This document shows positions 18,000 to 39,020 of a stretch of 64,000 bases of DNA, in pieces. The stretch is taken from NCBI GenBank assembly GCA_001898965.1, contig MKVW01000003.1:165373-229372 (forward strand), written 5' to 3'. The notes under the pieces are model-generated. The model saw nothing but the letters and a program-made list of their open reading frames with translations. It was not told where the DNA came from and did no database searches. Position 1 is the first letter of the stretch; each line of letters starts with the position of its first letter. Source of the DNA: Rhizobiales bacterium 62-17. Lineage in GTDB: Bacteria; Pseudomonadota; Alphaproteobacteria; Rhizobiales; Beijerinckiaceae. Both the position numbers and the translations under genes were made by a program.

Positions 18000-20900
18000 T
18001 TAATCCACAGCGGCGAGAATTCGAGCCCGTTCCGTCTGGGTGGCGGCGCGATGGTCGCGGGCGATCAGAGTATAGACGGTCGGCAGCACGAACAGCGTGA
18101 AGAGCGTGCCAATGAGCATGCCGGTCGAAACCGTGATGCCGATGGCAAAGCGGCTCGCGGCGCCGGCGCCGCTGGCGAGAATAAGCGGTACGAGGCCGGC
18201 GACCATGGCCGCCGTGGTCATGAGGATCGGCCGCAGGCGCACGGCGGCCGAGCGCAGGATGGCGGCGCGTCGGTCGAGCCCTTCGTCGCGTTGCAGATCG
18301 TTGGCGAAGGAGACCATCAGAATGCCGTGCTTGGAAATCAGTCCGATCAATGTGACGAGGCCAATCTGCGTGTAGATGTTGAGCGTCGCAAATCCGAGAT
18401 AGAGCGGGATGAGCGCGCCGCAGACCGATAGCGGCACGGAGACAAGAATGACGAGAGGATCGCGCAGGCTCTCGAACTGAGCGGCGAGCACCAGGAAAAT
18501 GACGACGAGCGCGAAGATGAAGGTGAGGGTGAGACGATCGCCTTCCAGCACATATTGGCGGGACTCGCCGAGCCAATCGATCGAATAGCCTGCGGGTAGA
18601 GGCTGTTTCTGCAAAAAGGCCACCGCATCACCCATGGTGACGCCAGGCAGCGGCACGGCGGAAAAGGTCACCGCGTTCATCTGGTTGAACTGGCTTAGCC
18701 GGTTGGCCTGGCTGCCCGATGTCACCGCGACGACGGTGGACAGGGGGATCAATTGCCCCGAGCCGGTTTTGACATAGTAGCGCCCTAAGGTTTCCGGCGA
18801 CAGCCGGTCGGCGCGCGCCACCTGGGTGATGACATCGTAAGAGCGGCCGCTGAGATTGAAGCGGTTGACGTAATTTTCGCCGACGAGAACAGCCAATGTG
18901 TCGGCGATGTCCTTCATGGTCACGCCAAGCGTATTGGCCTTGCCGCGATCGATGCGGATCTGCACGGAGCGGCTGTCGAAGGTGAGATTGCTGTCGACGA
19001 CCGCGAACAGGCCGCTCTTCATCGCATCGGCCTTCAGTGTTTCCATCGTCTTGTAAATGTCAGTGAAGTCGGCGGGCGCGCGCAACGCCATCTGCACCGG
19101 CAGGCCGGAACTGGAAGCAGGCAGGGGGGGCAGCAGGAAGGTGAAAATGCTTTCGCCTTCGATCGCATTGACGCCAGCCTGGATGAGCCCCTGCAAGGTG
19201 GCGACATCGCGCTTGCGCTTCGCCCAGTCGACCAGATTGACGCCGGCGAAACCGGCATTGGGGCCATCGGTGCCGTTGATGATGAAGCTCATCTCCGCTT
19301 CCGGCAAAGTGCGAAACACCTGTTCGATCTGCGGCGCGTAACGTTCGGTGTAATCGAGATTGGCATATTGCGGGCCTTTGACCACGGCCATGATCGAGCC
19401 CTGGTCTTCCGGTGGGGCCAGTTCGCGCTTGGCGCCCGAGAACAGAAAGACGAGACCGAGCATCACGCCAGCGGCAAAGAGCAGTACGGCGGGCGATGAG
19501 GCGAGGGTGGCGCCAAGGGCCCCTTCATAGGCGCGGGTGACCCGCGCGAAGACATGTTCGATCGCTTTGGCGAAACGGCCTTCCGACACATTGGAGCTGA
19601 GGAGCAGGGAGCCCATCATCGGCGACAAGGTCAGGGCGACGATCCCCGACACGACCACCGAGCCCGCGAGGGTGAAGGCGAATTCGCGGAACAGCGCGCC
19701 GGTGAGCCCGCCCATGAGGCCGATCGGCGCATAGACCGCGACGAGGGTGATGGTCATGGTGATGACAGGCGTGGCGATCTCGCGTGCGCCCATCAAGGCG
19801 GCGCGCGCCGGTGGCGCCCCTTCCTCGATATGGCGATGAATGTTCTCGACGACGACGATGGCATCATCGACCACCAGGCCGATCGCCAGCACCATGGCGA
19901 GCAAGGTGAGGAGATTGAGCGAGAAACCGGCGGCCAGCATCAGCGCCGCCGATCCGACTAAGGCCAGCGGGATGACGACGACCGGAATGATCACGGCGCG
20001 CAGCGAGCCGAGAAACAGGAAGATCACCACCACGACGATGGCAATCGCCTCGATGAGCGTCTTGCGCACTTCGTCGATCGATTCCGTGACGAAGCGGGCG
20101 ACGTCGAAATTATTGGCGATTTCGAGATCGCCCGGCTTGCTGCGCTCCATCGCCGGGATGAGATCGGTGACGCCGCGCACGATATCGATCGGATTGCCCG
20201 ATGGCGTGGCGTTGACGGCGATATAGACGGCACGGCGGCCGTTCATCATCGCGCTGGATTCATAATTCTGGCCGCCGATGTCGATGGTCGCGACATCGCC
20301 CAGCCGCACCAGCCCGCGTCCGTCGGCACCGGCCTTCACCACCATGCCGCGGAAGGCGTCGACGCTGACCAAATCGGTATCGGCAGCGATATTGGCTATT
20401 GTGAGCGAGCCTTTCACCTGGCCTGGGGCGGCCTGCACATTGTTGGCGCGAATAGCGGTTGCCGCGTCGGCGGCGGAGAGGCCATGGGCAGCCAGGCGCG
20501 TCGGATCGAGCCAGACGCGCATGGCGAGATTCTGCCCGCCGAGAACATCGGCGGAGGCGACGCCGGGCACGGTCGTCACCAAAGGCTGGGCGACGCGCAC
20601 GACGAAATCGGTGATTTCGGGGATGGAGAGGCGATCGCTGGCGAAAGCCAGATAGATCACCGCCGTCGGTTCATCGGTCAGTTTGGTGATGACCGGATCG
20701 TAGCTCTCGGCCGGCAGCTTGTAGCGAACCTGCTGCACCTTCGCCATTACCTCGGTCATGGCGCGATCGGCATTGGCGTTGAGGCGCAGGCGCGCCTTGA
20801 CGACACTGCGCCCTTGCGAGGAGACGGAGGTGAGATATTCGATCCCGTCGGCAGTGGCAATCGACTGCGCGATCGGCGTCGTCACGAAGCCTTGCATGAG

Positions 20901-21104
20901 GTCCTGTGAGGCGCCTGGATAGAGGGTTTCGACGCTGATCGTCGCGCTCTCAAGCACCGGATATTGGCGCACGGGCAGGGAGAAGAGCGCGCGGGCGCCG
21001 ATCAGCAGGATCAGCAGGCTGACGACGAGCGACAGCACCGGGCGGCGTACGAAAATATCGGTGAAGCGGGCGCCCTGCTTGTCGCGGCTGGCAGTCTGGC
21101 TCAT
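18000..21104 (-). CDS. RND multidrug efflux transporter, inner-membrane pump
   Basis: 1034 residues, standard for HAE-1 RND pumps: helix 1 (about 22-42), two large periplasmic loops (about 45-340 and 560-870), and helices 2-6 and 8-12. Helix 4 carries the proton-relay pair in GLVVDDAIVVVENIHRH. The protein forms a homotrimer that exports drugs, detergents or other amphiphiles using the proton gradient, with the adaptor encoded next to it and an outer-membrane channel not present in the window. The start codon overlaps the adaptor stop by 4 bp, showing one transcript read from the adaptor. Confidence 0.94.
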   Translation of the reverse strand: MSQTASRDKQGARFTDIFVRRPVLSLVVSLLILLIGARALFSLPVRQYPVLESATISVETLYPGASQDLMQGFVTTPIAQSIATADGIEYLTSVSSQGRSVVKARLRLNANADRAMTEVMAKVQQVRYKLPAESYDPVITKLTDEPTAVIYLAFASDRLSIPEITDFVVRVAQPLVTTVPGVASADVLGGQNLAMRVWLDPTRLAAHGLSAADAATAIRANNVQAAPGQVKGSLTIANIAADTDLVSVDAFRGMVVKAGADGRGLVRLGDVATIDIGGQNYESSAMMNGRRAVYIAVNATPSGNPIDIVRGVTDLIPAMERSKPGDLEIANNFDVARFVTESIDEVRKTLIEAIAIVVVVIFLFLGSLRAVIIPVVVIPLALVGSAALMLAAGFSLNLLTLLAMVLAIGLVVDDAIVVVENIHRHIEEGAPPARAALMGAREIATPVITMTITLVAVYAPIGLMGGLTGALFREFAFTLAGSVVVSGIVALTLSPMMGSLLLSSNVSEGRFAKAIEHVFARVTRAYEGALGATLASSPAVLLFAAGVMLGLVFLFSGAKRELAPPEDQGSIMAVVKGPQYANLDYTERYAPQIEQVFRTLPEAEMSFIINGTDGPNAGFAGVNLVDWAKRKRDVATLQGLIQAGVNAIEGESIFTFLLPPLPASSSGLPVQMALRAPADFTDIYKTMETLKADAMKSGLFAVVDSNLTFDSRSVQIRIDRGKANTLGVTMKDIADTLAVLVGENYVNRFNLSGRSYDVITQVARADRLSPETLGRYYVKTGSGQLIPLSTVVAVTSGSQANRLSQFNQMNAVTFSAVPLPGVTMGDAVAFLQKQPLPAGYSIDWLGESRQYVLEGDRLTLTFIFALVVIFLVLAAQFESLRDPLVILVSVPLSVCGALIPLYLGFATLNIYTQIGLVTLIGLISKHGILMVSFANDLQRDEGLDRRAAILRSAAVRLRPILMTTAAMVAGLVPLILASGAGAASRFAIGITVSTGMLIGTLFTLFVLPTVYTLIARDHRAATQTERARILAAVD

Positions 21105-22213
21105 TGCAGGCTCCCGCCGCGCGACGTTGCCCGGACGGTCTTCTGGTTCCGCATCAGCACTTTCGCGCCGGGCATGATGCGCAACTGGCCTGATGTGATC
21201 ACCACATCGCCGGCAGCAAGCCCTTCGACGATGGTGATACGCTCGCCGACCTGACGACCCGTCTGAACCTGCCGGTGTTCGGCAGTTCCAACGTTGCCCT
21301 GGATGTCACGCACCAGCACGACGCTCGGCCCGGCGGCAGAGGTGAGAACAGCAGTGTCGGGCACAGTGGGCAGTTGCGGTTCAGACGAGAGAACAAGTTC
21401 GGTCTGCACATACATGCCGGGGCGCAGCAGGCGGTCGGGGTTGGCCAAGGTCGCCTGCAAGGTGACGTTGCGCGTATCATTGCCGATCTGCGGTTCGATG
21501 GCGGTGACGCGCGCCGTGAAAATCTTGTCTGGGAAAACGTCGGTCTTCACCTCGACGGTCTGCCCCAAGCGCAATTTGCTGAGCGTCTGCTGCGGCAGAG
21601 CAAAGTTGACGTGGATTTCCGACAGATCAGTCAAAGTGGCGATGGGATCGCCGGCATTAAGGTATTGGCCGACGTTGATACGCCGCAGGCCGAGTTCGCC
21701 GGCAAAGGGCGCGCGCACGGCCTTCTGGGCAATCAAAGCCTGGATGCGCTGGATATCGGCGGAGGCTTGTTCGAATTCGGACTTACGCTGATCGAGGGTG
21801 ACGCGTGTCTGCGCGCCGGTGGGCACCAGGCTTTCCGAACGCCCGAGCTGCGATTGCGCGAATTTCGCCTTGGCCTGCAGGCTCACGAGATCGGCGCGTT
21901 CGGGCGCATCGAACAATTGCACGAGCGGATCGCCTTCGCGCACGCTTGCCCCCGGTGTGAAGGCGATGCGGACGACGCGGCCGGCGATCTCGGGCGCCAG
22001 CGTGACCTGACGCACGGCTTCCAGACTACCGACCGAGAGCAGGCGGACGGGTTCGGGATCGGCCTCGACGACCGCCGTGGCAACTGGCATCGGCGCGGGC
22101 GTGGCGGTTGCCGTGGCGCTGGCAGCCAGGGATTCCCTGGTCTGCTTCCAGAGGAAAAGCCCGCCAAAGGCCAGAAGAAGGAGGGCCGTCACCACTATCA
22201 ATCGCCGGATCAT
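21101..22213 (-). CDS. RND efflux periplasmic adaptor (membrane fusion protein)
   Basis: 370 residues. An N-terminal membrane segment (about 5-22), biotinyl-lipoyl halves flanking an alpha-hairpin (about 100-150, DLVSLQAKAKFAQSQLGR), then beta-barrel and membrane-proximal domains. This is the HlyD/AcrA-type adaptor that links the RND pump to an outer-membrane channel. A TTG two codons upstream (22219) keeps the frame, but ATG 22213 has a GAGA ribosome site 7-8 nt away and starts directly with MIRRLIVV. First gene of the efflux operon, divergent from a PadR regulator. Confidence 0.92.
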   Translation of the reverse strand: MIRRLIVVTALLLLAFGGLFLWKQTRESLAASATATATPAPMPVATAVVEADPEPVRLLSVGSLEAVRQVTLAPEIAGRVVRIAFTPGASVREGDPLVQLFDAPERADLVSLQAKAKFAQSQLGRSESLVPTGAQTRVTLDQRKSEFEQASADIQRIQALIAQKAVRAPFAGELGLRRINVGQYLNAGDPIATLTDLSEIHVNFALPQQTLSKLRLGQTVEVKTDVFPDKIFTARVTAIEPQIGNDTRNVTLQATLANPDRLLRPGMYVQTELVLSSEPQLPTVPDTAVLTSAAGPSVVLVRDIQGNVGTAEHRQVQTGRQVGERITIVEGLAAGDVVITSGQLRIMPGAKVLMRNQKTVRATSRGGSLQ

Positions 22214-22228
22214 CGCCAATCTCTATTT

Positions 22229-22290
22229 TCCAAATATTTTCTTGGATAATAGGAGGGGCGGCTAATATGTCAATAAATAACTTGGAATAA
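22229..22290. promoter_or_regulatory. TCCAA/TTGGA sites between RND operon and padR-like gene
   Basis: TCCAA (22229-22233) and TTGGA (22242-22246) form an inverted repeat with 8-nt spacer. A further TTGGA at 22282-22286 lies in CTTGGAATAA, a near copy of CTTGGATAAT at 22241-22250, 40 bp (about four helical turns) apart. The sites start 16 bp upstream of the adaptor ATG and about 190 bp from the PadR start, so they fit repression of the efflux operon. Confidence 0.4.
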
Positions 22291-22478
22291 TGGTCGGGCA
22301 CGCGCTCTCTTCATGGGGAAGCACGCCGCTTGTATAATCATGCTCAAGCTTGGACGGAGGCGTTGCCTACACAAGGATCTAAGGCTCTCAACTGATGGCG
22401 TATTCATTGCCTTTTGATGAGTACGATATGGTAGCAGAGGATTCGTAACAGCACCGTTCACCGAGCGAGGCACAATTG

Positions 22479-23081
22479 GTGGCAACGAAGAAACGTCGGG
22501 CGGCCGATCGCGACGGGGCGTCGCCGTCGCGGCTCAGCAACCTGTCCTATCAAATTCTGGGCGTGCTGCTGCGTGAGCCGCGCTCGGGATATGACATCGT
22601 CAAGGAGCTGCACAGTTTCCGGCCAGCCAAGACCAGCCAAGTCTATCCGACTCTGGCGGAACTGGAGGAGGAAGGGTTCGTCACCTCCGTCGACGTCGAT
22701 CAGAAGGGCCGGCCGAACAAGCGCGTCTATTCGGTGACGGAAACGGGCAAGGCGATCCTGCTGAGCTGGGTCGGCAGCGAGCCCGAGCCGCCGACACAGC
22801 GCGATGATTTCCTCACCATGATCTATTCGTCATGGATGAAGAAGCCGACCGAGGTCGTCGCCATGTTCGAGCGCCGGCTGGTCTATTTCGACAAGCTGGT
22901 CGAGAGTTTCGAGCGCTCGGCAGCGGAGCTGCGCGCCGATTTCCCGCAAGAAATCCAGGACATGTCGAACTGGCATTTCTCGCGCTACCTCCTGGTGCTG
23001 CGCCGCCTCGAAAGCAATCGCCATGAGGCCAACTGGTGCCGCTCGGTGATCGTCATGCTGCGCGAGAGGATGAAGGACTGA
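22479..23081 (+). CDS. PadR family transcriptional regulator
   Basis: 200 residues: a winged-helix domain (about 20-95, with SYQILGVLLREPRSGYDIVKEL and the wing QKGRPNKRVYSVTETG) and a helical Vir-type dimerisation domain (about 105-195). PadR proteins are repressors released by small, often phenolic, ligands. It faces away from the RND efflux operon and is its probable local repressor. The start is GTG 22479 or TTG 22476; GAGG at 22467-22470 serves either, and GTG is favoured as the commoner codon. Confidence 0.88.
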   Translation: MATKKRRAADRDGASPSRLSNLSYQILGVLLREPRSGYDIVKELHSFRPAKTSQVYPTLAELEEEGFVTSVDVDQKGRPNKRVYSVTETGKAILLSWVGSEPEPPTQRDDFLTMIYSSWMKKPTEVVAMFERRLVYFDKLVESFERSAAELRADFPQEIQDMSNWHFSRYLLVLRRLESNRHEANWCRSVIVMLRERMKD

Positions 23082-23085
23082 GGCT

Positions 23086-23802
23086 TTAAGCGCTCAGCCA
23101 GCGCCGCAGTTCGGCCGCGGCTGCCGTCGGTCTTTCCATCGGCAGCAAGTGGCCGGCACGCGGGATGACGACGACGCGGGCTTCTGGCGCGGCGGAAGCC
23201 GTGCGCTGCATCTCGGCCAGCGGCACCAGCGTGTCGCTTTCGCCCGCCATCACCAGCATTTCACGTTGCAGCTTGGCGAGGAGATGATAGCGCGCCGGTC
23301 GATCAAGCGCCGCGCGGCTGTGGGCGATGTAACGTTCGGCGCCATAATCCTTCACCATCGCGTCGCGCCGCGTCATCAGATCGGCATTGGCCAGACTGTC
23401 GGCGTGAAAGGCCGAATTGGCATTGGCTTTCACCATGGCCTCGTAGTCGCCAGCTTGCGCCCGTGCGATGGCGGCCTCGCGGGCGCCGCGTCGCTCCGGC
23501 TTGTCGGCGCCGGGGCCTGAGCCGATGAAGGCGAGCCGTTCGATCCGCTCGGGCGCTTGTTCAAGCATGGCGGCGGCGACATAGCCGCCGAACGAGAAGG
23601 CGCAAAGGTTGAAGCGCTCCGGGCAGTGGGCCAGCACATCGGCGGCGATGGCATCGAGCGTGTCGAGCGGCGGATATTCCATCGCGATCACATCGGCATC
23701 GTCGGCGAGCAGTCGCCCCATGTCCGCGAAAACCGCGCGCGTGTTGTTGAGACCAGGCAGAAGGACGAGGGACGGTTTGGACACAGGCGGATCCTCAGAC
23801 AT
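23086..23802 (-). CDS. Alpha/beta hydrolase
   Basis: 238 residues with the catalytic triad of the fold: nucleophile Ser in CAFSFGGYVAA, acid in GESDTLVP, base in RAGHLLPMERP, and an N-terminal LLPGLNNT oxyanion segment. An esterase, thioesterase or C-C hydrolase acting on a small molecule; no closer assignment. Last gene of a six-gene minus-strand operon, 10 bp after the TctC-type binding protein, so it probably acts on the compound that operon handles. Its end nearly abuts the PadR gene end (convergent). Confidence 0.82.
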   Translation of the reverse strand: MSEDPPVSKPSLVLLPGLNNTRAVFADMGRLLADDADVIAMEYPPLDTLDAIAADVLAHCPERFNLCAFSFGGYVAAAMLEQAPERIERLAFIGSGPGADKPERRGAREAAIARAQAGDYEAMVKANANSAFHADSLANADLMTRRDAMVKDYGAERYIAHSRAALDRPARYHLLAKLQREMLVMAGESDTLVPLAEMQRTASAAPEARVVVIPRAGHLLPMERPTAAAAELRRWLSA

Positions 23803-23812
23803 TGATGAACGT

Positions 23813-24787
23813 TCACTCGGCGAGCTGGATATCGCCGTCCTTGATGAGCTTGTCGAAGCGCTTGATATTGGCCTTCACCGTGCTGCGAAATTCTTCGCCG
23901 GTCGTGCCACGCACCGTATAGCCGATATTGGTGTAGACCTTGCTGACGTCGGGATCCTTGATGGCTTCGCGCATCGCCGCTTCGAGTTTATGGGCGATGG
24001 GCGCCGGCACGCCTGAAGGCACGACATAGCCGACCCAGCCTTCGGTGACGAGATCGACGCCCTGTTCGCGCAGGGTTGGGATGTCGGGCAGGGAGGCGCT
24101 GCGCTCGTTGCCCGTGACGGCGAGCGGCACGGTCTTGCCGGAGGTGATATAGGCGCGACCGGCGGCGGCGCTGGTCAGCAGAAATTGAATCTGGCCGCCG
24201 GCAAGATCGTTCAAGGCATTGCTGTCACCCTTGTAGACGACATGCACCGTATCGATGCCGAGTTCCTTGCCGAGGATGACGCTGTAGAAATGATAGGACG
24301 TGCCGGCGCCGAGCGTGCCGTAGTTGAATTTGCCGGGATTGGCACGGGCATTGGCGGTAAAATCCTTCAGCGTCTTTCCTGCTTCCGCATTGGCCATCAA
24401 AAGCATGAAGGTGTCGACCGCGATGGTCAGCGGCGTGAATTCTTTTAGGGGATCGATGCCGTAGCTCTTGTCGGTCAGTGGCAGCGAGACCATGGTGGCC
24501 GGGACGACCGTGCCGATGGTGTGGCCATCGTGCGGCGCTTTCAGCATAGCTTGCAGGCCGACTTTACCGCCGGCACCTGGCTGGTTGATGACGATGACGG
24601 GCTTGCCGAGGATTTTGCTGAGTTGGGTCGCCATTGGCCGTGTCACCACGTCGGTCAATCCGCCGGGTGGATAAGGCACGATGACGGTCAGCGTTTTCGT
24701 TGGCCAGGCTTCGTCGGCCTTGGCGAGGGCAGGCATGGCCGCGACAATCGCGGCTCCGATCAATGGCAATAGGCGGCGTAGCATCAT
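23813..24787 (-). CDS. Tripartite tricarboxylate transporter solute-binding protein (Bug/TctC)
   Basis: 324 residues with a signal peptide (about 1-24, ending ALAKADE) and the Bug hallmarks IVPYPPGGLTDVVTRP, VVINQPGAGGKVG and FNYGTLGAGTSYHF. It binds a carboxylated solute in the periplasm. The TctA and TctB membrane partners are absent from the window; orphan Bug proteins are common in this group and may serve shared permeases or sensing. The start has GGGAGGG about 7 nt upstream. Fifth gene of the catabolic operon. Confidence 0.92.
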   Translation of the reverse strand: MMLRRLLPLIGAAIVAAMPALAKADEAWPTKTLTVIVPYPPGGLTDVVTRPMATQLSKILGKPVIVINQPGAGGKVGLQAMLKAPHDGHTIGTVVPATMVSLPLTDKSYGIDPLKEFTPLTIAVDTFMLLMANAEAGKTLKDFTANARANPGKFNYGTLGAGTSYHFYSVILGKELGIDTVHVVYKGDSNALNDLAGGQIQFLLTSAAAGRAYITSGKTVPLAVTGNERSASLPDIPTLREQGVDLVTEGWVGYVVPSGVPAPIAHKLEAAMREAIKDPDVSKVYTNIGYTVRGTTGEEFRSTVKANIKRFDKLIKDGDIQLAE

Positions 24788-24847
24788 GACAAGTCCCTCC
24801 CAGCGATTGTGTAAGCCGCCTTGATCGGCGGTCTTCTTTTTCTCCCC

Positions 24848-25576
24848 TCATACCTCTGCGGTTGTCCGCACCGGCGTGTTTTCCGGCTTAGCCATGTTCG
24901 TCTCGATCCAGCCGATCACGTCGTTCGTGGACGCGACATCGCCGAACAGAGCGTAGAAAGTGCCGAGCGTCGCGTTATGGGCGTCGTCGTCATAGGTGGC
25001 ATTGGCATCGCTCACCATGATGGTCTTGAAATTCAGCATGGCGGCATCGCGGGCCGACGACTCACAGCAGACATTGGTGACGGTGCCGACGATGATCACC
25101 GTGTTGTAACCGCCGGCGCGCAGCCGCGCGGGCAGATTGGAGGCGCCGTCGATAAAGGCGCTGAAGCGGGTCTTCTCAACGCAATCATCTTCAGGGCGGA
25201 CGTCGAGGCCGGCATAAAGCGCGTGGCCTGGCGATCCGGGCTTTTGCGTTTCGAGCGACAGGGCCGTCGCCTCGGGCAGGTTCATGGCGAACCAGTTCGA
25301 CCAGGATTCGACGGTCTCGGGCGTAAACGTGTTTTGGATCCAGAACACTTTGCCGCCACCGCCACGCACCGTCGTGGCCAAGCGGTTGACGTTGTCGACG
25401 ATCGAGAGCGCCGTGGGGATCAGCGAGACAGCGTGTTCCTTCACCATGAAGGCATTCTGCAGGTCGATGACGACCAGCGCGGTCTTCTTCGGATCGAGAT
25501 CGGCATGGGGATGCTCGGCCTTGCGCCGGCGCATCGCGCTCTTGTGAGCCCAGGCGGGGAGATTGGTCTTGTTCAT
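24848..25576 (-). CDS. Isochorismatase-like cysteine hydrolase
   Basis: 242 residues with the triad of the family: Asp in VVIDLQNAF (about 38), Lys in CVEKTRFSAF, and Cys in VTNVCCESSARDAAM (one of two adjacent Cys). Members hydrolyse amides or related bonds, for example N-carbamoylsarcosine, biuret, nicotinamide or ureidoacrylate. The substrate is not readable. GGGAGG lies 8 nt before the start. It lies between an MHS-type importer and a Bug protein, suggesting that it acts on an imported amide-containing or carboxylated compound. Confidence 0.87.
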   Translation of the reverse strand: MNKTNLPAWAHKSAMRRRKAEHPHADLDPKKTALVVIDLQNAFMVKEHAVSLIPTALSIVDNVNRLATTVRGGGGKVFWIQNTFTPETVESWSNWFAMNLPEATALSLETQKPGSPGHALYAGLDVRPEDDCVEKTRFSAFIDGASNLPARLRAGGYNTVIIVGTVTNVCCESSARDAAMLNFKTIMVSDANATYDDDAHNATLGTFYALFGDVASTNDVIGWIETNMAKPENTPVRTTAEV

Positions 25577-25596
25577 CGTATCGCCTCCCGGATGTT

Positions 25597-26904
25597 TCAG
25601 GTCGCCAGCGGGTAACGCCAGCGCCAGATGATTGGTGTCGCGACAATGGCGACCAGCGCAAAGAAAGCTACATAATGGGCCGGGGTGATCGGAACGATCG
25701 GCGCCAGTGCACCAAGGATGACCGGCGAGAAGCCACCGACGATGGCCGCCGCCAGATTGTAGCCGACGGCAATGCCGGTATAGCGAACAGGTGCGGGGAA
25801 GCTGCGGATCATCACCACGTAAAGCATGGTTTGAAAGCCGATCAGCAGGCCGAAGAAGAAAAAGTAGGTGGCGGTCGTCGCCAGGGAATTCGAGACGTTC
25901 AGATAAAAGGCATAGACGGCGACGATGGCCGCCGCGGCGACACTCATGATCGTGCGCACGGCGCCAAAACGATCGACCAGAAGGCCGCAGACGAATGTGC
26001 CGATGGCGAGACCGGCGGACGCCCAGGGTGCCGCGTCATGAATGACATGGCGGTCGATATGCATGAAGGTCTGCAGATAGGTGACCGGATAGAGCAGGCC
26101 GCCGGCGACGATGGCGGCCGGGACCGTCGCGACGACAAAACAGCCGAGCGTTTCCCTGGGATAAAAGCGCAACAGATCCCTCAGCGGCATGGTGCTGGCT
26201 TTTTCCTTGTGCCGGCGCATTTCCTCGAACACCGGCGTCTCGCGCACGTAGCGCCGCAGATAGGCGGAGATCAGGCCGAAGATGCCGCCGAGGATGAAGG
26301 GCAAGCGCCAGCCATAGGAAAGCTGGTCCTGCATGGGCAAGGCGATGATCAAAGCGACGAAGCCGGAGGCGAGAATGCCGCCGATGGCGAGCCCCGAGCC
26401 CATCAGGCCGCAGGCGACGCCAAGCCGGCGTTCATGCAGATGTTCCGACATGAACACCAAGGCGCCGGGAATCTCGCCGCCGATGGCGATGCCTTGAAAC
26501 AACCGGCAGAAGAGCAGCAGAAGCGGCGCGAGGACGCCAACCTGCGCATAGGTCGGCAGAACGCCGATGAGAAAGGTCGGCACGGCCATCAGAATGAGGC
26601 TGACGGCAAACAACCGTTTGCGGCCGAAGAGATCGCCAAGCACCGCCAGGATGATGCCGCCGATCGGGCGGACGAAATAGCCGACCGAGAAAATCGCCAG
26701 CACCTGGAGTTGCGCCATCCACGGCGGCATGTCGGCGGGGAAGAACAGGCGGCTCAAGATCGGCGTCAGATAGATAAAGACGACGAACTCGTAATATTCG
26801 AGCATGCCGCCCAAGGTCGCCAGACCCATGACCCGGACCTGTTCGCGACTGAGATCGTGTTGCAGTCGGGTGTCTTCGTCGCCGGCCGCCAAATCCGTGC
26901 TCAT
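25597..26904 (-). CDS. MFS transporter, metabolite:H+ symporter (MHS) type
   Basis: 435 residues, 12 predicted helices. Family motifs include GDLFGRKRLF after helix 2 and the helix-1 stretch GGMLEYYEFVVFIYL, which is typical of the MHS subfamily that imports organic acids and betaines. The frame is open far upstream, but GGGAGG lies 6 nt before the ATG at 26904 (and directly against the ATG at 26910), fixing the start there. It is third in the operon, 25 bp after the carotenoid-type oxygenase, and is the likely uptake system for the pathway substrate. Confidence 0.88.
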   Translation of the reverse strand: MSTDLAAGDEDTRLQHDLSREQVRVMGLATLGGMLEYYEFVVFIYLTPILSRLFFPADMPPWMAQLQVLAIFSVGYFVRPIGGIILAVLGDLFGRKRLFAVSLILMAVPTFLIGVLPTYAQVGVLAPLLLLFCRLFQGIAIGGEIPGALVFMSEHLHERRLGVACGLMGSGLAIGGILASGFVALIIALPMQDQLSYGWRLPFILGGIFGLISAYLRRYVRETPVFEEMRRHKEKASTMPLRDLLRFYPRETLGCFVVATVPAAIVAGGLLYPVTYLQTFMHIDRHVIHDAAPWASAGLAIGTFVCGLLVDRFGAVRTIMSVAAAAIVAVYAFYLNVSNSLATTATYFFFFGLLIGFQTMLYVVMIRSFPAPVRYTGIAVGYNLAAAIVGGFSPVILGALAPIVPITPAHYVAFFALVAIVATPIIWRWRYPLAT

Positions 26905-26929
26905 GGCCATCCTCCCGCGTGCTTGTCGA

Positions 26930-28432
26930 TCAGATCGTGGTGGAACGGCTTTCGGTGGTGATGCGGTCGCCTTCCACCCAGCAGGCATGCGTGCCGGCGG
27001 AAATGCGGTGGGGCAGGATGATGCGGGCGATCGGCTCGGCGGCGATATTGGCCGCATCGAGAATGAGGCATTCCGACTGATTGGCCTTCATGTCGGTGAT
27101 ATAGGTCAAGAGATAGCCGTCGTCCTCGCTCTTGGCATTGAGACGGCGGGCGATTTGCGGTTCGCTGCCATAGCGCCCTTCGCCGAACTCCATCCGCTCC
27201 GTGGTGTCGCGGACGAGATCGTAACGCTTGAGGCCGCGGAACAGCCACTCGCCGGGCTGATACAGAACGTTATAGCTGAACCGATAGGGACGGCCGACAT
27301 AGTCGTTGCTGCACACCGGGAATTCGGTGATCTCGTCGTCGATCTGATGTTCGGTGGTCTGGCCCGTGCGCAGATTGAAGCGCCAGCGATACATCAAGGT
27401 CGGGTTGTTGTGCTTGTCGAGATGGGCGCGGATGCGTTCATACTGCTCTTGTTTGGTGCCGCCTTCGCCGACACGCGGCTTATGCGGATTGTTCTGGATG
27501 CAGCCATCCATGACCACTTCGTCGCCATCTTCATAGCAATTGGTCAGATGCAGGATGAAACAGGGCTTGGCCTCGAACCAGCGCACCTGGGCATTGTCGC
27601 CACGCCGTGGGATGACGCCGAAGCGGGCCGGAATATCGCGGTGGAAGGCCAGTTTGCGCTGCCCTTTCTTCAACAGTTCGTGGTCGAAGAAGAAAGGCAG
27701 ATCGTGCAGGACCGTGTAGTTCTTGGTGATGCCGAGATCGTGCGGCCAGCGTGGCCCGGGCAGTTCGATTGGCACGTAGTGGACGAGTTGATTGTTGCGG
27801 TCGATGACACCGTAATTCATGAACGGCGCCACTTCCGGGTAGTTGAAGAACATCATCTCCCCGGTTTCCCAGTCCACTTTGTAGTGCGAGGCGAGGCCAT
27901 GCACGACCTTGCGTGCCCAAGATGGATCGGCACCCAAGGTTTCCAGTGTCACCGGATCGAGGCGCCAGGGCTCGCTGCCCTGTGACATGGAAGCGATGAG
28001 CTTGCCGGCGTGGCAGATCACATCCGTGCCGGCATTGTCCTTCATGGCGCCCATGGAGCCCCAGCCGCGGCGCTCGTAAAGCTGCGGCGCGAGAATACCG
28101 GGCCAGAGCGATTTGCCGGCGCCCTGTTCGGCAAGGAAACCGGTGGTGCGTACGAAGCGGTTGCGATAGGTCGCCTTGCCGTCCTCGAAATGCATGGCGT
28201 GCAGCATGCCGTCCCCATCATAGGGGTGATACATGCCAATCGATTCATGCACCTGATTGTGGGTGTTGCGCACATAGATACCATTGAGATCGCGCGGGAT
28301 CTCGCCGATCACTTTCAGCTCGGGCGTGCTGGCCGTATATTCCTTGTCGTTGGGCGTGAATGGCCCGTTGAGAAAGGGATGATCGTTGTCATCAGCGATG
28401 GTGAGCTTGATCTGATTGACGATCTCAAGCAT
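26930..28432 (-). CDS. Carotenoid/stilbene-cleavage-type oxygenase
   Basis: 500 residues of the seven-bladed propeller family. The four iron-binding His are identifiable as His183 (GLASHYKVD), His231 (WPHDLGIT), His295 (FILHLTNCYED) and His482 (SAGTHACWV). The family uses non-haem Fe(II) and O2 to cut C=C bonds of carotenoids, apocarotenoids or stilbenes such as lignostilbene. The surrounding catabolic genes and the lack of carotenoid synthesis genes favour an aromatic or stilbene-like substrate, an inference only. The start overlaps the end of the upstream hydrolase gene by 8 bp. Confidence 0.9.
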   Translation of the reverse strand: MLEIVNQIKLTIADDNDHPFLNGPFTPNDKEYTASTPELKVIGEIPRDLNGIYVRNTHNQVHESIGMYHPYDGDGMLHAMHFEDGKATYRNRFVRTTGFLAEQGAGKSLWPGILAPQLYERRGWGSMGAMKDNAGTDVICHAGKLIASMSQGSEPWRLDPVTLETLGADPSWARKVVHGLASHYKVDWETGEMMFFNYPEVAPFMNYGVIDRNNQLVHYVPIELPGPRWPHDLGITKNYTVLHDLPFFFDHELLKKGQRKLAFHRDIPARFGVIPRRGDNAQVRWFEAKPCFILHLTNCYEDGDEVVMDGCIQNNPHKPRVGEGGTKQEQYERIRAHLDKHNNPTLMYRWRFNLRTGQTTEHQIDDEITEFPVCSNDYVGRPYRFSYNVLYQPGEWLFRGLKRYDLVRDTTERMEFGEGRYGSEPQIARRLNAKSEDDGYLLTYITDMKANQSECLILDAANIAAEPIARIILPHRISAGTHACWVEGDRITTESRSTTI

Positions 28433-29252
28433 GGGCGCTTTCCTTGGCTTTGGCGACGCGGCGCTGAATGAAGTCGAACAGCACGCGGTTGAATTCGGGC
28501 TGGTTCTCGGCCCAGCCGTAATGTCCGGCGCCGGCGATGACGGCGAATTCGGCGTTGGGCACCAGAGCGGCCGCGGCCTTCATGCCTTCCGGCCGGCCGA
28601 CGCTGTCGCATTCGCCGGCGACGAGCAGGGTGGGCACGCGCAATTGCTTGAGGGTTTCGCGGCCATCGTAAGCCATGATGGCGAGGATCGAGGCGCGGAA
28701 CGTGTCGGCCTTGGTGGAGCCGGCGACCTCGGCGACGAGATCGACCATCGGTCCGCTCGCCTTCGGGCCGAACATGGATTTGATCAGCGGCATGGCGGAT
28801 TCCGCCAAGGTCTTGCCCTGGTCGAGGGGCGCCAGCCGCTTGGCGACATACTCCTTCTGATCCTCGGCGCTGCGCGTGGCGAACGAGCCGACGGTGGCCG
28901 AAACGATCACGCCATGCACGAGATCGGGAAAGAGCAGAGCGGCGCGCGGCGCGATGATGCCGCCGAGGCTGTGCCCGAACAGGATATTGGTGCGCCCCGC
29001 CGTTGCCTTCAGCAACAGACCGAAGCTGCGGGCCAGATAATCGATGCTGTAGTCGCCCGCCGGCAGGTCGGGCAGGGCGCTGAGGCCATAGCCTGGCGCA
29101 TCCCATGCCACCACGCGATAGCCGGCGCGGACCAGTTCGGCGATCTCATAGCGCCAGTAATCCTTGGAGCCATAGCCGCCATGCAGGAGATAGACCGTGA
29201 TATCGCCGTCACCGGTGATGGAATGATCGGGAAGCCGTTCTTTTTGGGCCAT
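28425..29252 (-). CDS. Alpha/beta hydrolase
   Basis: 275 residues. Oxyanion motif YLLHGGYGS, nucleophile elbow FGHSLGG (Ser95), acid GECDSVG (about 216) and base GAGHYGW (about 245). It resembles C-C bond hydrolases and esterases of aromatic degradation. The frame runs 93 bp further up, but GGGGGA sits 5 nt before ATG 29252. First gene of the minus-strand operon that continues into the cleavage oxygenase, MFS importer, cysteine hydrolase, Bug protein and second hydrolase. Confidence 0.85.
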   Translation of the reverse strand: MAQKERLPDHSITGDGDITVYLLHGGYGSKDYWRYEIAELVRAGYRVVAWDAPGYGLSALPDLPAGDYSIDYLARSFGLLLKATAGRTNILFGHSLGGIIAPRAALLFPDLVHGVIVSATVGSFATRSAEDQKEYVAKRLAPLDQGKTLAESAMPLIKSMFGPKASGPMVDLVAEVAGSTKADTFRASILAIMAYDGRETLKQLRVPTLLVAGECDSVGRPEGMKAAAALVPNAEFAVIAGAGHYGWAENQPEFNRVLFDFIQRRVAKAKESAHA

Positions 29253-29373
29253 TGTCGTCCCCCTGTCGCCGGGTGCTGACGCTTGTCTTGCCGAGGTCCC
29301 TGGACGCAGATGAGCGTGCATAACGAACATTCTTTCATATGTCAAATATTATATATATAAGCTAGGGTGTCAG
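29253..29373. promoter_or_regulatory. Divergent promoter region of the catabolic cluster
   Basis: 121 bp between two divergent hydrolase genes. Bases 29336-29361 form a block almost free of G and C (CATATG, then AAATATTATATATATAA), unlike the GC-rich surroundings, and should include the -10 regions of one or both operons. The ATTATATATA core recalls the AT-rich elements at 46643 and 49516. No perfect long palindrome was found here. Confidence 0.45.
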
Positions 29374-30282
29374 ATGGCGGAACGGATCATGCGGCGAGAT
29401 GTGACTTTTCAGTCCGAGGGCGATCGGATCAGCGCCTGGTTCTATGAACCGGCGAAAACAGGCACGGGGCCGGCGCCAGGCATCGTGATGGCACACGGGT
29501 TTGGGGCGACGAAAACCATGCGCCTCGACAGTTTCGCCACGCGCTTCGCGGCCGCTGGCTTCGCGGTCGTCGTCTTTGATTACCGGCGTCTTGGTGAAAG
29601 CGGTGGTGTGCCGCGTCAGGAAATCGATCCGGCGACGCAGATCGAGGATTATCGCAACGCCATCACCTGGCTATCGGATCAGCCTGGTGTCGATGCCGGG
29701 CGCATCGGCATCTGGGGCACCAGCTATAGCGGCGGCCATGTGCTCGTCGTTGGCGCGACCGATGCACGGGTGAAATGCGTTGTTGCGCAGGTGCCGACCA
29801 TCAGCGGTTTTGCGGTCGGCAAGCGCCGCTTCGGCACGGCGGACGTCTTGGCGAAACTCAATGCCGATCTCCACGCCGATCGTCTCGCACGGCTCAACGG
29901 CGGTGCGCCGGAAGTGCGTCCGCTCGTGGCCGCCACGCCAGATGATGTGGGCGCGATCTATTCAGCACCCGATGCGGTGCAATGGTATGTAGAGGCGGGG
30001 GTCGGTGGCGGTTGGGTCAATCAGGCGACCTTGCGCTCCGTGGAATATTCGCGCGCTTACGAGCCCGGCGCTTATGTCTCGTTCATCAGTCCACGGCCGC
30101 TGTTGATGATCGTCGCGCGCGAGGATTTCGTCACGCCGACCGATCTGGCGCTGTCGGCTTTCGAGACGGCGCGCGAACCGAAGAAACTCGTGTTGGTTCC
30201 CGGCGGTCATTTCGAACCCTATGGCGCGGCGCTGCCGCAGGCCGCCGGTGCGGCGCTCGATTGGTTCGTCGAACATTTGTAA
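29374..30282 (+). CDS. Alpha/beta hydrolase, dienelactone-hydrolase/X-Pro peptidase-like
   Basis: 302 residues. Visible elements are the MAHGFGATK oxyanion loop, FDYRRLGES, nucleophile elbow IWGTSYSGGH (Ser117), acid AREDFVTP and base GGHFEPY. The G-x-S-Y-S-G-G elbow occurs in the DUF1100/S15-like subset of alpha/beta hydrolases that act on esters or small acyl compounds. It heads a two-gene unit with an SDR dehydrogenase, divergent from the six-gene catabolic operon, and probably serves the same pathway. Confidence 0.82.
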   Translation: MAERIMRRDVTFQSEGDRISAWFYEPAKTGTGPAPGIVMAHGFGATKTMRLDSFATRFAAAGFAVVVFDYRRLGESGGVPRQEIDPATQIEDYRNAITWLSDQPGVDAGRIGIWGTSYSGGHVLVVGATDARVKCVVAQVPTISGFAVGKRRFGTADVLAKLNADLHADRLARLNGGAPEVRPLVAATPDDVGAIYSAPDAVQWYVEAGVGGGWVNQATLRSVEYSRAYEPGAYVSFISPRPLLMIVAREDFVTPTDLALSAFETAREPKKLVLVPGGHFEPYGAALPQAAGAALDWFVEHL

Positions 30283-30300
30283 CCTTGAAATGGAGATCGC

Positions 30301-31068
30301 ATGGCTGTGGACCTTTTTGATCTGACCGGGCAGACCGCGCTTGTCACCGGAAGTGCTTCCGGCATCGGCAGTGCCATCGCGCGTCTTCTTGCGCAGGCTG
30401 GTGCCGATATCGTCGTGCATGGTTTCGATCAGGCGCAGGCAAGCAGTGCGCTCGTCGAGGAGATCAAGGCCATGGGGCGCCGAGCGATCGCCGTCGATGG
30501 CGATCTGACCGATGCGCGTAAGGTCGCCAGCCTTGCCGACACGATCGGCACGCAGATGGGCGGTCTTGCGATCCTGGTAAACTGTGCCGGCGGCTCGCCG
30601 CGCAAGGCCATGTTCGCGACCATGGAGGAAAGTGCCTGGGATCATGTCATCGACAAGAATCTGAAATCGATGTTTCTGACGACGCAGGCGATGCTGCCGC
30701 TGTTGAAAGCGCAGCCGGGCGCCCGCATCGTCAACGTCACATCTTGCGTGACACGTTCGGGCGGCGTTCCCGGCGGCGGCGCCTATGCGACGGCCAAGGG
30801 CGGCGTCGATGTGTTGACGCGGGCGCTCGCCAAGGAGCTGGCGGGCGATGGCATTCGTGTGAATGGGGTGGCGCCGGGATTGGTCGACAGTCCGTTCCAC
30901 GACAGCGACCCGAAGGCAAAATACCCGCATCTGATCGGCCGTATTCCACTCGGCCGCATCGGTGAGCCCGAGGATATCGCCGGGCCGGTGTTGTTTCTCG
31001 TCTCGAAAGCCGCACGCTATGTCACCGCCGAGATCATCGAGGTGAGCGGCGGGACGCGGTTGACGTGA
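30301..31068 (+). CDS. Short-chain dehydrogenase/reductase (SDR)
   Basis: 255 residues, classical SDR: cofactor motif TGSASGIGSAIA (about 17-28), NCAGG, catalytic Ser (NVTSCVTRSG) and YATAKGG (Tyr-X3-Lys), ending with a VSGGTRLT tail. It oxidises or reduces an alcohol/ketone with NAD(P). After the first beta-strand the segment VVHGFD lacks the Arg/Lys typical of NADPH users, so NAD(H) is a fair guess. GGAG sits 5 nt before ATG. Follows the hydrolase by 18 bp. Confidence 0.9.
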   Translation: MAVDLFDLTGQTALVTGSASGIGSAIARLLAQAGADIVVHGFDQAQASSALVEEIKAMGRRAIAVDGDLTDARKVASLADTIGTQMGGLAILVNCAGGSPRKAMFATMEESAWDHVIDKNLKSMFLTTQAMLPLLKAQPGARIVNVTSCVTRSGGVPGGGAYATAKGGVDVLTRALAKELAGDGIRVNGVAPGLVDSPFHDSDPKAKYPHLIGRIPLGRIGEPEDIAGPVLFLVSKAARYVTAEIIEVSGGTRLT

Positions 31069-31078
31069 TCGAATGCAA

Positions 31079-31108
31079 AAGGGGCGGTGGATTGCGCCAC
31101 CGCCCCTT
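31079..31108. terminator. Bidirectional terminator between SDR and yghU-like gene
   Basis: Perfect 12-bp stem AAGGGGCGGTGG (31079-31090) / CCACCGCCCCTT (31097-31108) with 6-nt loop between convergent genes. Read on the minus strand it is followed by TTTT, so it should be strongest for the yghU-like gene. Confidence 0.8.
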
Positions 31109-31132
31109 CACGTCTTCTGCACTAGAGAGGCG

Positions 31133-32005
31133 TTACGCCTTCGCCAATTTGTCCTGTGTCTTGGTGTCGAAGTCGCTGGCGTCGTGGCGTTCGTGCAATT
31201 GGGTTTCCGGCTCGCCGCTGGTGCGATTGACCATGCGGCCGCGCTTCACGGCTGGACGTGCGTAGACCTGATCGGCCCAGCGTTGCAGGTTCTTGTAGTC
31301 CTGCACGGCGAGGAATTCGCCAGCGCCGTAGTTCCAGCCCTTGGCCAGGCCGCCGTACCAAGGCCAGATCGCCATATCGGCGACGGTATATTCGCTGCCG
31401 GCGATATATTCGGTGTTCGCCAACTGCCGGTCGAGCACGTCGAGCTGGCGTTTGGTTTCCATCGCATAACGGTCGATCGCATATTCGATCTTGATCGGCG
31501 CATAGGCGTAGAAATGTCCCAGGCCGCCGCCGACGAAAGGCGCGCTGCCCATCTGCCAGAAGAGCCAGGAGAGGGTTTCGGCGCGGGCCGGCTGTTCGGT
31601 CGGCAGGAAGGCGCCGAATTTCTCGGCGAGATGGACGAGGATCGCGCCGGATTCGAACACGCGGATCGGCGTCTTGCCGCTGCGATCGACCAAAGCCGGA
31701 ATCTTCGAATTCGGATTGACGTCGACAAAGCCGCTGCCGAACTGATCGCCTTCGCCGATCTTGATCAGCCACGCATCATACTCAGCGCCTTTATGGCCAG
31801 CGGCCAGCAGCTCTTCGAGCATGATCGTCACTTTCACCCCATTGGGGGTGCCGAGCGAATAAAGCTGGAGGGGATGTTTGCCGATCGGCAATTCCTTCTC
31901 GTGGGTTGGTCCGGCGATGGGGCGGTTGATGTTGGCGAATTGCCCGCCGTTGCCTTTGTTCCAGGTCCAAACTTTCGGGGGTGTGTATTCGGCTGTCTCG
32001 GCCAT
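31133..32005 (-). CDS. yghU: Glutathione-dependent disulfide-bond oxidoreductase, YghU-like GST
   Basis: 290 residues. N-terminal extension with the YghU pattern (PPKVWTWNKGNGG, ANINRPIAGPTHEKELP), a thioredoxin-fold domain starting near HPLQLYSLGTPNGVKV, and a helical GST C-domain. YghU and YfcG bind two glutathiones and reduce small disulfides such as hydroxyethyl disulfide. The start at 32005 (MAETAEY) has GCGGAG 6 nt upstream, while the ATG 7 codons earlier has none. Stands alone with its own terminator. Confidence 0.93.
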   Translation of the reverse strand: MAETAEYTPPKVWTWNKGNGGQFANINRPIAGPTHEKELPIGKHPLQLYSLGTPNGVKVTIMLEELLAAGHKGAEYDAWLIKIGEGDQFGSGFVDVNPNSKIPALVDRSGKTPIRVFESGAILVHLAEKFGAFLPTEQPARAETLSWLFWQMGSAPFVGGGLGHFYAYAPIKIEYAIDRYAMETKRQLDVLDRQLANTEYIAGSEYTVADMAIWPWYGGLAKGWNYGAGEFLAVQDYKNLQRWADQVYARPAVKRGRMVNRTSGEPETQLHERHDASDFDTKTQDKLAKA

Positions 32006-37515: not shown

Positions 37516-37725
37516 TCATTCCTCAAGCGTGAAGCCGACACGTAACGTCACCTGATAGTGGGCGACCTTGTCGTTATCGATGAAGCCACGCGTGTTGGTC
37601 ACTTCGAACCAGCGCATGTTACGCACGGTCTTGCCGGCGCGCGCGATGGCGTTCTCGATCGCCTCCTCGATTGAATCTTCCGAAGAGCCAACGAGTTCGA
37701 GAATTTTGTAGACATGATCTTTCAT
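37516..37725 (-). CDS. Dodecin
   Basis: 69 residues matching dodecin end to end: [26 protein letters not shown], the flavin-stacking Trp in [12 protein letters not shown], and [14 protein letters not shown]. Dodecins form hollow dodecamers that bind flavins (and in some bacteria CoA), acting as flavin buffers. The start at 37725 is favoured over the ATG two codons earlier because GGGGAG is 7 nt away from it rather than 1. Confidence 0.96.
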
Positions 37726-37757
37726 GCTCATTCTCCCCAGTTGGTTGCGCGATCGAG

Positions 37758-37820: not shown

Positions 37821-39020
37821 TCAAGGCCGTGGACTGGCCTTGCGATCGAAAATACCGGCGAATGTGGCGATTGCCGCTTCGGATTCGGCGCGGTCGGCCG
37901 TCTCATTGTCAATGCCATAGCCCCACATGTCATTCTCGCCAGCCTGTTGGACGACGATGCCATCGGGACGCGGAAGCGCCACGACGTTCCTATAGTAAAC
38001 GCCGTAACGTGCCTCGGGTTGCGCCGGCAGCCAGGCGATCTGGCCGCGCACTGGAATGATGCTCTCGTCCTTCCATAAAGCCCGCGCGCCATAGCCGGTG
38101 CAGTTGACAATGACGGATTGCTTCAGGCGCGCGAGATCGGCCGGCGTGTTGAACGTCATGGTTTCGATCTGACCGCCCTCGCGCAAAAAATCTTCGAGCA
38201 GCAAGCGCGACAGTTCGGTGACGTTGAACTGCATGCTGGTGCCGTGCCTGACGTAGTTCACCGGGAAGGGATGAGCCCCCGGTGCCAGCAGACGAAACGG
38301 TGGCGTGATATCGGCGAGCTGCTTCTTCTCATATTCGGCGAAATGAATGGCGCCGATGGCTCGCGGCTTCGGCGCATCGTCGGAGAGTGCATAGCGATCG
38401 GTCCAGGCGACAGGTTCGCCCGGCAAGCCCAGCAAGGTCTGATAGGTCGCATAGGATGTGCGCGCCATGTCCTCCCATAAAGCGGGGAAGGTCGGTGCCA
38501 CTTTGTCGGCATCGGCGATGCGCGAGTCCGGCGACCATGTGCCGGTGGCGCGAAACGAACGGGTCTGTGGCGGCCGCTCCTTGGCATAGATGGTGACCTT
38601 CGCGCCGGCACGCCGCAGCAACAGCGCGGATGTCAGGCCAAGCGCGCCGCAACCAATGACGGCGATGTCGCGCTTGCCGCCTTCCAGTGCATAACGGGCG
38701 GCGATCGTGCTCGATCCCCAGGAGAGCGACCAGCCGCTGCCGCCGTGACCATAGTTATGCACGACCCGCTTGTGGCCGACGGTCTCGACTTCGAGCCGTG
38801 GCCCGGCGGCCCGGAATGGGCGCATGCAGACGGTGATGCGCGTGATGCGGTCGGCGCTGAGCTTGATCGGCGCGAGCGGCGGCACGACAAAGCGCGGCAT
38901 CTCGTCGGTCATGATCGGCTTTTGGCTCACGTCCTCGGCGAAGGCGTGGCTGGCAACGGTGGCGCCAAGACCGGTCAGGCCGAGCATGAAGGCCCGGCGG
39001 TTGTTCGTCATCTGGTTCAT
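37821..39020 (-). CDS. Tat-exported FAD oxidase, circularly permuted D-amino-acid-oxidase homologue
   Basis: 399 residues. Residues 1-28 are a twin-arginine signal (NNRRAFMLGLTGLG, ending SHAFA), so the folded flavoprotein should act in the periplasm. The FAD motif VIGCGALGLTSALLLRRAG is at 121-139, preceded, not followed, by the DAAO substrate/FAD segment MRPFRAAGPRLEVE and HNYGHGGSGWSLSWG (66-102). In canonical DAAO these lie at the C-terminus. After the Rossmann motif come RSFRATGTWSP and VNCTGYGARALWKD...PVRGQI in normal order, and the protein ends where the displaced segment should begin. It likely oxidises a D-amino acid or amine with O2, giving H2O2; the substrate is unknown. Second Met (codon 4) is an alternative start. 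Confidence 0.82.
   Translation of the reverse strand: MNQMTNNRRAFMLGLTGLGATVASHAFAEDVSQKPIMTDEMPRFVVPPLAPIKLSADRITRITVCMRPFRAAGPRLEVETVGHKRVVHNYGHGGSGWSLSWGSSTIAARYALEGGKRDIAVIGCGALGLTSALLLRRAGAKVTIYAKERPPQTRSFRATGTWSPDSRIADADKVAPTFPALWEDMARTSYATYQTLLGLPGEPVAWTDRYALSDDAPKPRAIGAIHFAEYEKKQLADITPPFRLLAPGAHPFPVNYVRHGTSMQFNVTELSRLLLEDFLREGGQIETMTFNTPADLARLKQSVIVNCTGYGARALWKDESIIPVRGQIAWLPAQPEARYGVYYRNVVALPRPDGIVVQQAGENDMWGYGIDNETADRAESEAAIATFAGIFDRKASPRP

Follow-up and report, generated by a model that had tools for sequence, protein, structure and literature searches.

A widespread bacterial variant of the D-amino-acid oxidase family with circularly permuted segment order

A flavoprotein gene located in the analysed 64 kb stretch of DNA (the window) very probably specifies a flavoenzyme that arose by natural circular permutation within the D-amino-acid oxidase (DAAO)/D-aspartate oxidase family, which is the best overall explanation of the data. 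In this protein, the segment that closes the chain of canonical DAAOs precedes the FAD-binding Rossmann domain. The permuted order belongs to a whole family and not to one protein, which amends an earlier interpretation made from the letters of the window (the sequence-only reading). The permuted proteins represent a widespread new variant within the known DAAO family with a putative enzyme activity. The gene and its mapped parts are as follows.

37821..39020, minus strand: gene of the permuted DAAO-family flavoprotein, 399 aa (open frame; Pfam DAO, E 2.5e-25)
38937..39020, minus strand: twin-arginine signal peptide, residues 1–28 (NNRRAFMLG ... SHAFA, then ED; cleavage site placed by eye)
38685..38849, minus strand: segment homologous to the DAAO C-terminus, residues 58–112 (matches to C-termini of DAAO and D-aspartate oxidase; pLDDT)
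within segment 58–112, minus strand: predicted strands 61–70, 75–81 and 84–90 and predicted helix 100–112 (model)
38820..38822, minus strand: Arg67, which corresponds to Arg283 of human DAAO (profile alignment, human residues 271–328)
38739..38759, minus strand: HNYGHGG motif, residues 88–94, with Gly94 as equivalent of human Gly313 (profile alignment)
38670..38684, minus strand: junction where the old C-terminus meets the old N-terminus, residues 113–117, a 5-residue loop (model; spacing in relatives)
37824..38669, minus strand: FAD Rossmann and substrate domain in normal order, residues 118–399 (Pfam DAO 1–289/353 on 118–383; model)
38637..38654, minus strand: GCGALG dinucleotide-binding motif, residues 123–128 (Pfam match; alignment)

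The open frame starts with an ATG at 39020, ends with a stop codon at 37823–37821 and comprises 399 codons with no internal stop. The FAD-binding GxGxxG Rossmann domain of the DAO superfamily is recognized in residues 118–383 (Pfam DAO, 90.2 bits, cut-off 27.9). NCBIfam matches are weak (best 1.3e-7) and all 25 listed, out of 83, are far below their own cut-offs. The genome itself contains one match to the protein. The GLRP...HNYGHGG signature is present and homologous, but N-terminal: MRPFRAAGPRLE forms residues 66–77 and HNYGHGGSGWSLSWG residues 88–102, whereas TGTWSP and VNCTG...PVRGQI come after GCGALG. The sequence-only reading had placed the DAAO C-terminal signatures ahead of the FAD Rossmann motif and the two mid-protein motifs behind it in normal order. 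Both claims are borne out, including the residue positions of the motifs.

Homology of the displaced segment is evident from a phmmer search against solved structures. Residues 58–113 align with residues 319–374 of the fungal DAAO 7ct4 (i-Evalue 7.7e-8) and residues 59–108 with residues 309–358 of the D-aspartate oxidase 9vpf (i-Evalue 1.5e-7); residues 281–334 of the D-aspartate oxidase 6rkf are also aligned by the N-terminal segment. The match of residues 117–332 to the N-terminal part of 7ct4 is weaker (i-Evalue 0.0011), as is generally the case when the chain from residue 117 is placed on the N-terminal portions of these structures. In a search of the own genome, Pfam DAO matches one frame twice: the C-terminal part takes up profile positions 1–290 (E 1.0e-18), and the N-terminal part takes up positions 289–351 (E 4.6e-5; 24.9 bits, which alone is below the curated cut-off of 27.9). 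A split in reverse order of this kind is what a circular permutation looks like. A profile of the window protein and 76 relatives finds 18 PDB sequences at E ≤1e-5, comprising 17 DAAOs or D-aspartate oxidases and one styrene monooxygenase, and the same split order is present in the five alignments shown.

Residues 45–399 were rotated in steps of 6 and aligned locally to nine canonical bacterial DAAOs. The native order has a mean score of 138.6, which rises to 203.6 when the chain is cut at 111. All nine canonical proteins give their top score at cuts 105–117, and rotation restores one colinear alignment. As a control, a canonical protein (L128) was rotated at 24-residue intervals and aligned to the other eight; it scored best unrotated (434.6). 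In tblastn searches of plasmids, the rotated query (limit 1e-3) lists five Streptomyces/Streptantibioticus records among 11, with E-values from 7e-8 to 3e-5 and query coverages of 89–94% in four records and 48% in one. None of the five is among the six records listed by the native query, for which the limit was 1e-5 and not 1e-3; two of the five have E-values of 3e-5. Four of these records are canonical on reading, and the fifth is another entry for the same strain.

An AlphaFold2 model derived from 77 aligned sequences has a mean pLDDT of 90.2 and a pTM of 0.85. In ten-residue blocks covering residues 51–120, pLDDT is in the range of 96–98 except for residues 91–100 (88). Helix 100–112 of the model runs through five residues into Rossmann strand 118–122. 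The modelled chain ends after helix 377–395, where a canonical chain would continue into the GLRP strand, in agreement with the claim of the sequence-only reading that the chain stops at the place of the missing segment. Foldseek ranks 1–33 among 50 listed matches are DAAOs or D-aspartate oxidases (E 2e-13 to 2e-10), four of them from entries 4qfc and 4qfd, which we take to belong to these enzymes. Target TM-scores of these matches are in the range of 0.48–0.65 because the Foldseek alignments are sequential. The placement of residues 58–112 in the fold is predicted from homology and model confidence.

Further family members with HNYGHGG before GxGxxG, for which the sequence-only reading had proposed a search, were found in a scan of the GTDB genome collection. 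At least 571 relatives were detected and the best 80 were kept. H[NHQ]YGHGG precedes the Rossmann motif in all 80, and none shows the order Rossmann first, HNYGHGG last. This selection favours the permuted order, since the scan patterns require the HNYGHG region and similarity to the permuted query decided which 80 were kept. According to organism names, the best 80 include 65 Pseudomonadota, 11 Acidobacteriota and one member of the Verrucomicrobiota (a MAG); three are without a phylum. A relative with 89% identity in another genome of the window's genus has the same permuted order. In this genus the gene is seen in two of 37 genomes, many of which are incomplete, a patchy presence as with gain by transfer or repeated loss.

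More divergent permuted proteins are encoded on plasmids of Niveispirillum, Kozakia, the actinomycete Nonomuraea, Bradyrhizobium and Rhizobium, and in genomes of the window's order. In the divergent set, 10 of 11 loci are permuted, the window's own gene among them, and the eleventh (L029) is broken and was left out. This locus on a Mesorhizobium onobrychidis plasmid (L029:2807-3870) contains a permuted relative whose gene is apparently broken, since the annotation divides it into two neighbouring FAD-dependent oxidoreductase genes; a TPP enzyme is encoded next to it. A very divergent permuted member comes from the window's class (L127:1138-2412, genome G194, 1.9 Mb); its signal looks Sec-type and has no twin arginine.

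Two genome samples complement the scan. A class sample of 289 genomes yielded at least 14 genomes with a permuted protein (the window's own included) and, among the loci read, at least one with a canonical protein (G297); these are lower bounds, with at most six candidates scored per genome among the matches listed. The other listed matches mostly cover no more than a short region at the Rossmann motif. Among 398 genomes sampled from the phylum, the rotated query has matches at E ≤1e-6 in 20. All of these are permuted by coordinates; 19 were read as proteins, all permuted, and the twentieth is the window's own. The rotated query should favour the canonical order, yet 20 of 20 matches are permuted, which counts for a permuted family. 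Canonical forms do exist in the window's phylum (L128 and a Burkholderia plasmid).

The profile splits, the single peak of the rotation scan, the order in 80 of 80 relatives and the confident model support the natural circular permutation proposed in the sequence-only reading. At the level of sequence the permutation is as good as proven, and it is almost certain that a DAAO-type chain has been permuted.

In an unrooted tree, one branch with a support of 100/100 splits 36 permuted sequences (a chosen spread, rotated to canonical order) from nine canonical sequences, all bacterial; the program flags long branches (L127, for which the branch is very long, and L128) and odd composition in some rows. 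A short-search tree with the join removed, then without the long-branched L127, gives a support of 99. The split by one branch is consistent with a single permutation event in the ancestor of the permuted members seen here. Related families have the Rossmann domain first, and by analogy with them the canonical order is probably ancestral.

The N-terminus of the permuted proteins carries an export signal. Twin arginines and a hydrophobic core, read from the whole open frame, are present in 78 of the best 80 relatives; the two misses are L050, which is cut by a contig end, and L036, which is without such a core. In the alignment, for which starts were chosen to include a nearby RR, the twin arginines occupy 74 of 77 rows and the other three are gaps. 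The frequency of the signal in the 80 relatives supports the Tat export claimed in the sequence-only reading, which is highly probable. A lipobox follows the signal in 51 of the 80 relatives. A soluble periplasmic form of the window protein is likely because SHAFA-ED is found where others carry the lipobox. In one divergent group, L026–L028 are without a signal as read and L163 has one.

The active site of DAAO includes Arg283 and Tyr228, which bind the substrate carboxylate, and Gly313, which binds the amino group (PMC6279847). The equivalents of Arg283 and Gly313, Arg67 and Gly94, are invariant in 77 of 77 aligned rows of the window's subfamily. The Tyr228 column, aligned by sequence only and beside a variable loop, contains Val347 in the window protein. 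Over the 77 rows it contains Ser (40), Asn (11), Gly (8), Leu (7), Tyr (3) and other residues (8), and the canonical rows have Tyr in seven of nine cases and Phe in two. The first glycine of the GG following this column is replaced by Gln358. This glutamine is invariant (77/77), as are Cys65 and Trp97 (77/77). Tyr228 appears to be mostly lost in the window's subfamily. Due to the loss of Tyr228 and GG, D-amino-acid activity of the window protein should not be assumed. In the joint alignment, the permuted rows outside the window's group keep Tyr and GG in 14 of 14 cases, and for this reason the pocket change looks separate from the permutation. An amine- or amino-acid-type substrate of the putative enzyme is somewhat more likely than not.

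The same observations bear on another explanation, according to which the permuted fold is retained and the pocket has been rebuilt for a substrate other than an amino acid, such as another carboxylate, an amine or a cyclic amide, with a mode of action unlike that of DAAO. The losses at Tyr228 and GG, the three invariant residues and the 14 divergent rows that keep the canonical pattern would fit such a change. Hydantoinase/oxoprolinase genes, which adjoin the permuted gene in three loci (L064, L072 and L104), would fit it as well. The Arg283 and Gly313 equivalents, however, stay invariant, and a substrate of this kind is a serious possibility that falls somewhat short of probable.

The gene neighbourhood was inspected at further loci. 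A DUF3592 protein is encoded upstream of the window gene. Downstream, at a distance of 89 bases on the same strand, lies the gene of a dodecin, a flavin-binding protein:

37516..37731, minus strand: dodecin gene, neighbour (Pfam PF07311, E 2.1e-30)

By motif search, a dodecin near the permuted gene was found in two of eight loci checked, the window locus and that of the close relative L002, and dodecin was rejected as a partner. Neighbours were clustered for 72 of 79 loci with a crude gene caller; seven loci were dropped since the central gene was not picked, and L086, the 80th, was outside the set. No conserved operon partner was seen among the neighbours of the 72 loci. The largest cluster, consisting of response-regulator-like proteins, is present in 14 of 72 loci in scattered places and on both strands. 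The 118 immediate neighbours of at least 110 aa include, as raw counts, four TonB receptor barrels, four HATPase_c proteins, three hydantoinase/oxoprolinase A proteins, two S9 peptidases and two M28 peptidases. In single cases elsewhere, prolyl oligopeptidase-type, beta-lactamase-family, hydantoinase/oxoprolinase or TonB-receptor genes adjoin the permuted gene. The neighbours at most hint at peptide or amino-acid use.

On the Kozakia plasmid (L178, record 19328-31748), two serine hydrolases, an alpha/beta hydrolase, two FAD oxidoreductases (one of them permuted) and a cytochrome c are encoded together, with a CocE/NonD hydrolase and a TonB receptor on the other strand. This is a possible locus for peptide or D-amino-acid utilisation. 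Permuted proteins without a signal are found in compact runs on a Bradyrhizobium plasmid (L027:2360-6687) and a Rhizobium plasmid (L028:1473-5699). The runs also encode a TPP enzyme and an FAD-binding oxidoreductase, which in L027 is of the FAD_binding_4/BBE type, and they may represent a small cluster for biosynthesis.

In bacteria, flavoenzymes of the periplasm often deliver electrons to the respiratory chain. The window's subfamily, with the same permuted fold, could accordingly consist not of oxidases but of periplasmic dehydrogenases that pass electrons to cytochrome c or quinone. The predicted exported location points in this direction, and in Kozakia baliensis the gene following the permuted flavoprotein encodes a cytochrome c. 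Yet a small CXXCH protein lies within two genes in only one of 72 loci, by which a cytochrome c partner is rejected as a general rule. A dehydrogenase is less likely than not, and oxygen is about as likely as not to be the main electron acceptor of the putative enzyme.

The join between the two old termini bears on the origin of the segment order. In the relatives, the spacing from HNY to the Rossmann motif is 33 residues in 70 of 80 cases, 34 in two, 35 in six and 38 in two. The distance from the start of HNYGHGG to the chain end is 25–34 residues in eight of nine canonical proteins and 52 in the ninth. A spacing of 33–38 residues in the permuted proteins compared with 25–34 residues to the canonical end fits head-to-tail joining with almost no linker. 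A C-terminal HNYGHGG copy hidden by a frameshift, which the sequence-only reading had named as counter-evidence, was looked for in the six frames of the 64 kb window; a regular-expression scan found one motif in total and no second HNYGHG-like motif.

From the order of segments alone, fusion of a short domain resembling the DAAO C-terminus ahead of an FAD protein that had lost its C-terminus independently would look identical. Such a fusion is very improbable: no second copy of the segment is found, with one HNYGHG per frame across the 79 loci counted, what was lost corresponds exactly to what was gained (Pfam positions 1–290 and 289–351), the spacing at the join equals the old C-terminus plus a short old N-terminus, and the predicted structure is of high confidence across the join. 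Furthermore, if the added domain took the place of the lost one in the fold, the outcome would amount to a permutation. An assembly or frameshift artefact at one locus has a negligible likelihood. Nothing at the window locus points to it, although a broken gene is known for one plasmid relative (Mesorhizobium, L029). The frame in the window is unbroken, and the permuted order recurs in 80 of 80 relatives from other genomes and in the 89%-identical relative, by which assembly error is ruled out.

The natural circular permutation can be pictured as follows. The canonical chain would have been joined end to start, so that the old C-terminal helix passes directly to the Rossmann strand of the old N-terminus, and a new opening would have formed in the loop that precedes the GLRP strand. 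In the simplest scenario, a tandem duplication or a fusion took place and the outer parts were then lost, a single time, in the ancestor of the permuted members. The chain should adopt the predicted DAAO fold and presumably binds FAD in the cytoplasm. It would then be exported in the folded state by Tat to the periplasm, in many relatives probably as a lipoprotein. There it most likely oxidizes an amine or an amino-acid-like carboxylate; Arg67 would hold the carboxylate and Gly94 the amino group, and electrons would pass to oxygen or the respiratory chain. Homology, permuted order, spread, signal and conserved residues can be read directly from the sequences. The fold is a prediction, and export, FAD content, mechanism, the single event and the substrate class are deductions, of which those on export and mechanism, like the predicted fold, have a good basis. 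The fuller account, in which one ancient permutation founded a mostly exported bacterial family with several deep groups and with members in four phyla, and the active site of the window's group was then rebuilt, giving a putative periplasmic flavoenzyme with an undescribed reaction, may or may not hold with about equal likelihood.

To our knowledge, no natural permutant of DAAO has been described. The literature matches listed, from a collection without most subscription journals, contain no description of one, a negative weakened by the fact that motifs of the HNYGHGG type are seldom printed; no paper with HNYGHGG in the article text was found, and no assayed or solved member of the permuted family. 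A term search in CIRPIN (PMC12667903) gave no hit for oxidase, FAD or flavin. The many members that share one cut offer natural material on how the FAD Rossmann fold tolerates moved ends and on where new termini place an export signal or lipid anchor. The recurrence of the rearranged order in several bacterial phyla makes it a natural case for studying protein rearrangement. Family databases pass over permutants: Pfam calls the window protein a plain DAO, in two pieces, and annotated plasmid relatives are only named 'FAD-dependent oxidoreductase', which hides the permutation and the likely change of substrate.

DAAO (EC 1.4.3.3) is a textbook flavoenzyme, represented by the human (2du8), pig (1kif) and Rasamsonia (7ct4) enzymes and by canonical forms in Streptomyces. 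The window protein shares with it the FAD Rossmann motif, VNCTG, PVRGQ, the GLRP arginine, HNYGHGG and the predicted fold. It differs in the rotated segment order, the export signal and the loss of Tyr228 and GG in most of its subfamily. The same features are shared with D-aspartate oxidase (human 6rkf, Cryptococcus 9vpf), which is among the best sequence and fold matches, and the same three differences apply. The wider Pfam PF01266 DAO superfamily (glycine oxidase, sarcosine oxidase, L-2-hydroxyglutarate dehydrogenase) is matched above the cut-off in sequence and more weakly in fold. Its known members have the Rossmann domain first; the window protein, in contrast, matches the Pfam profile in two pieces. 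The cpRAS GTPases, natural circular permutants according to PMC2430557, represent the same kind of rearrangement in an unrelated fold.
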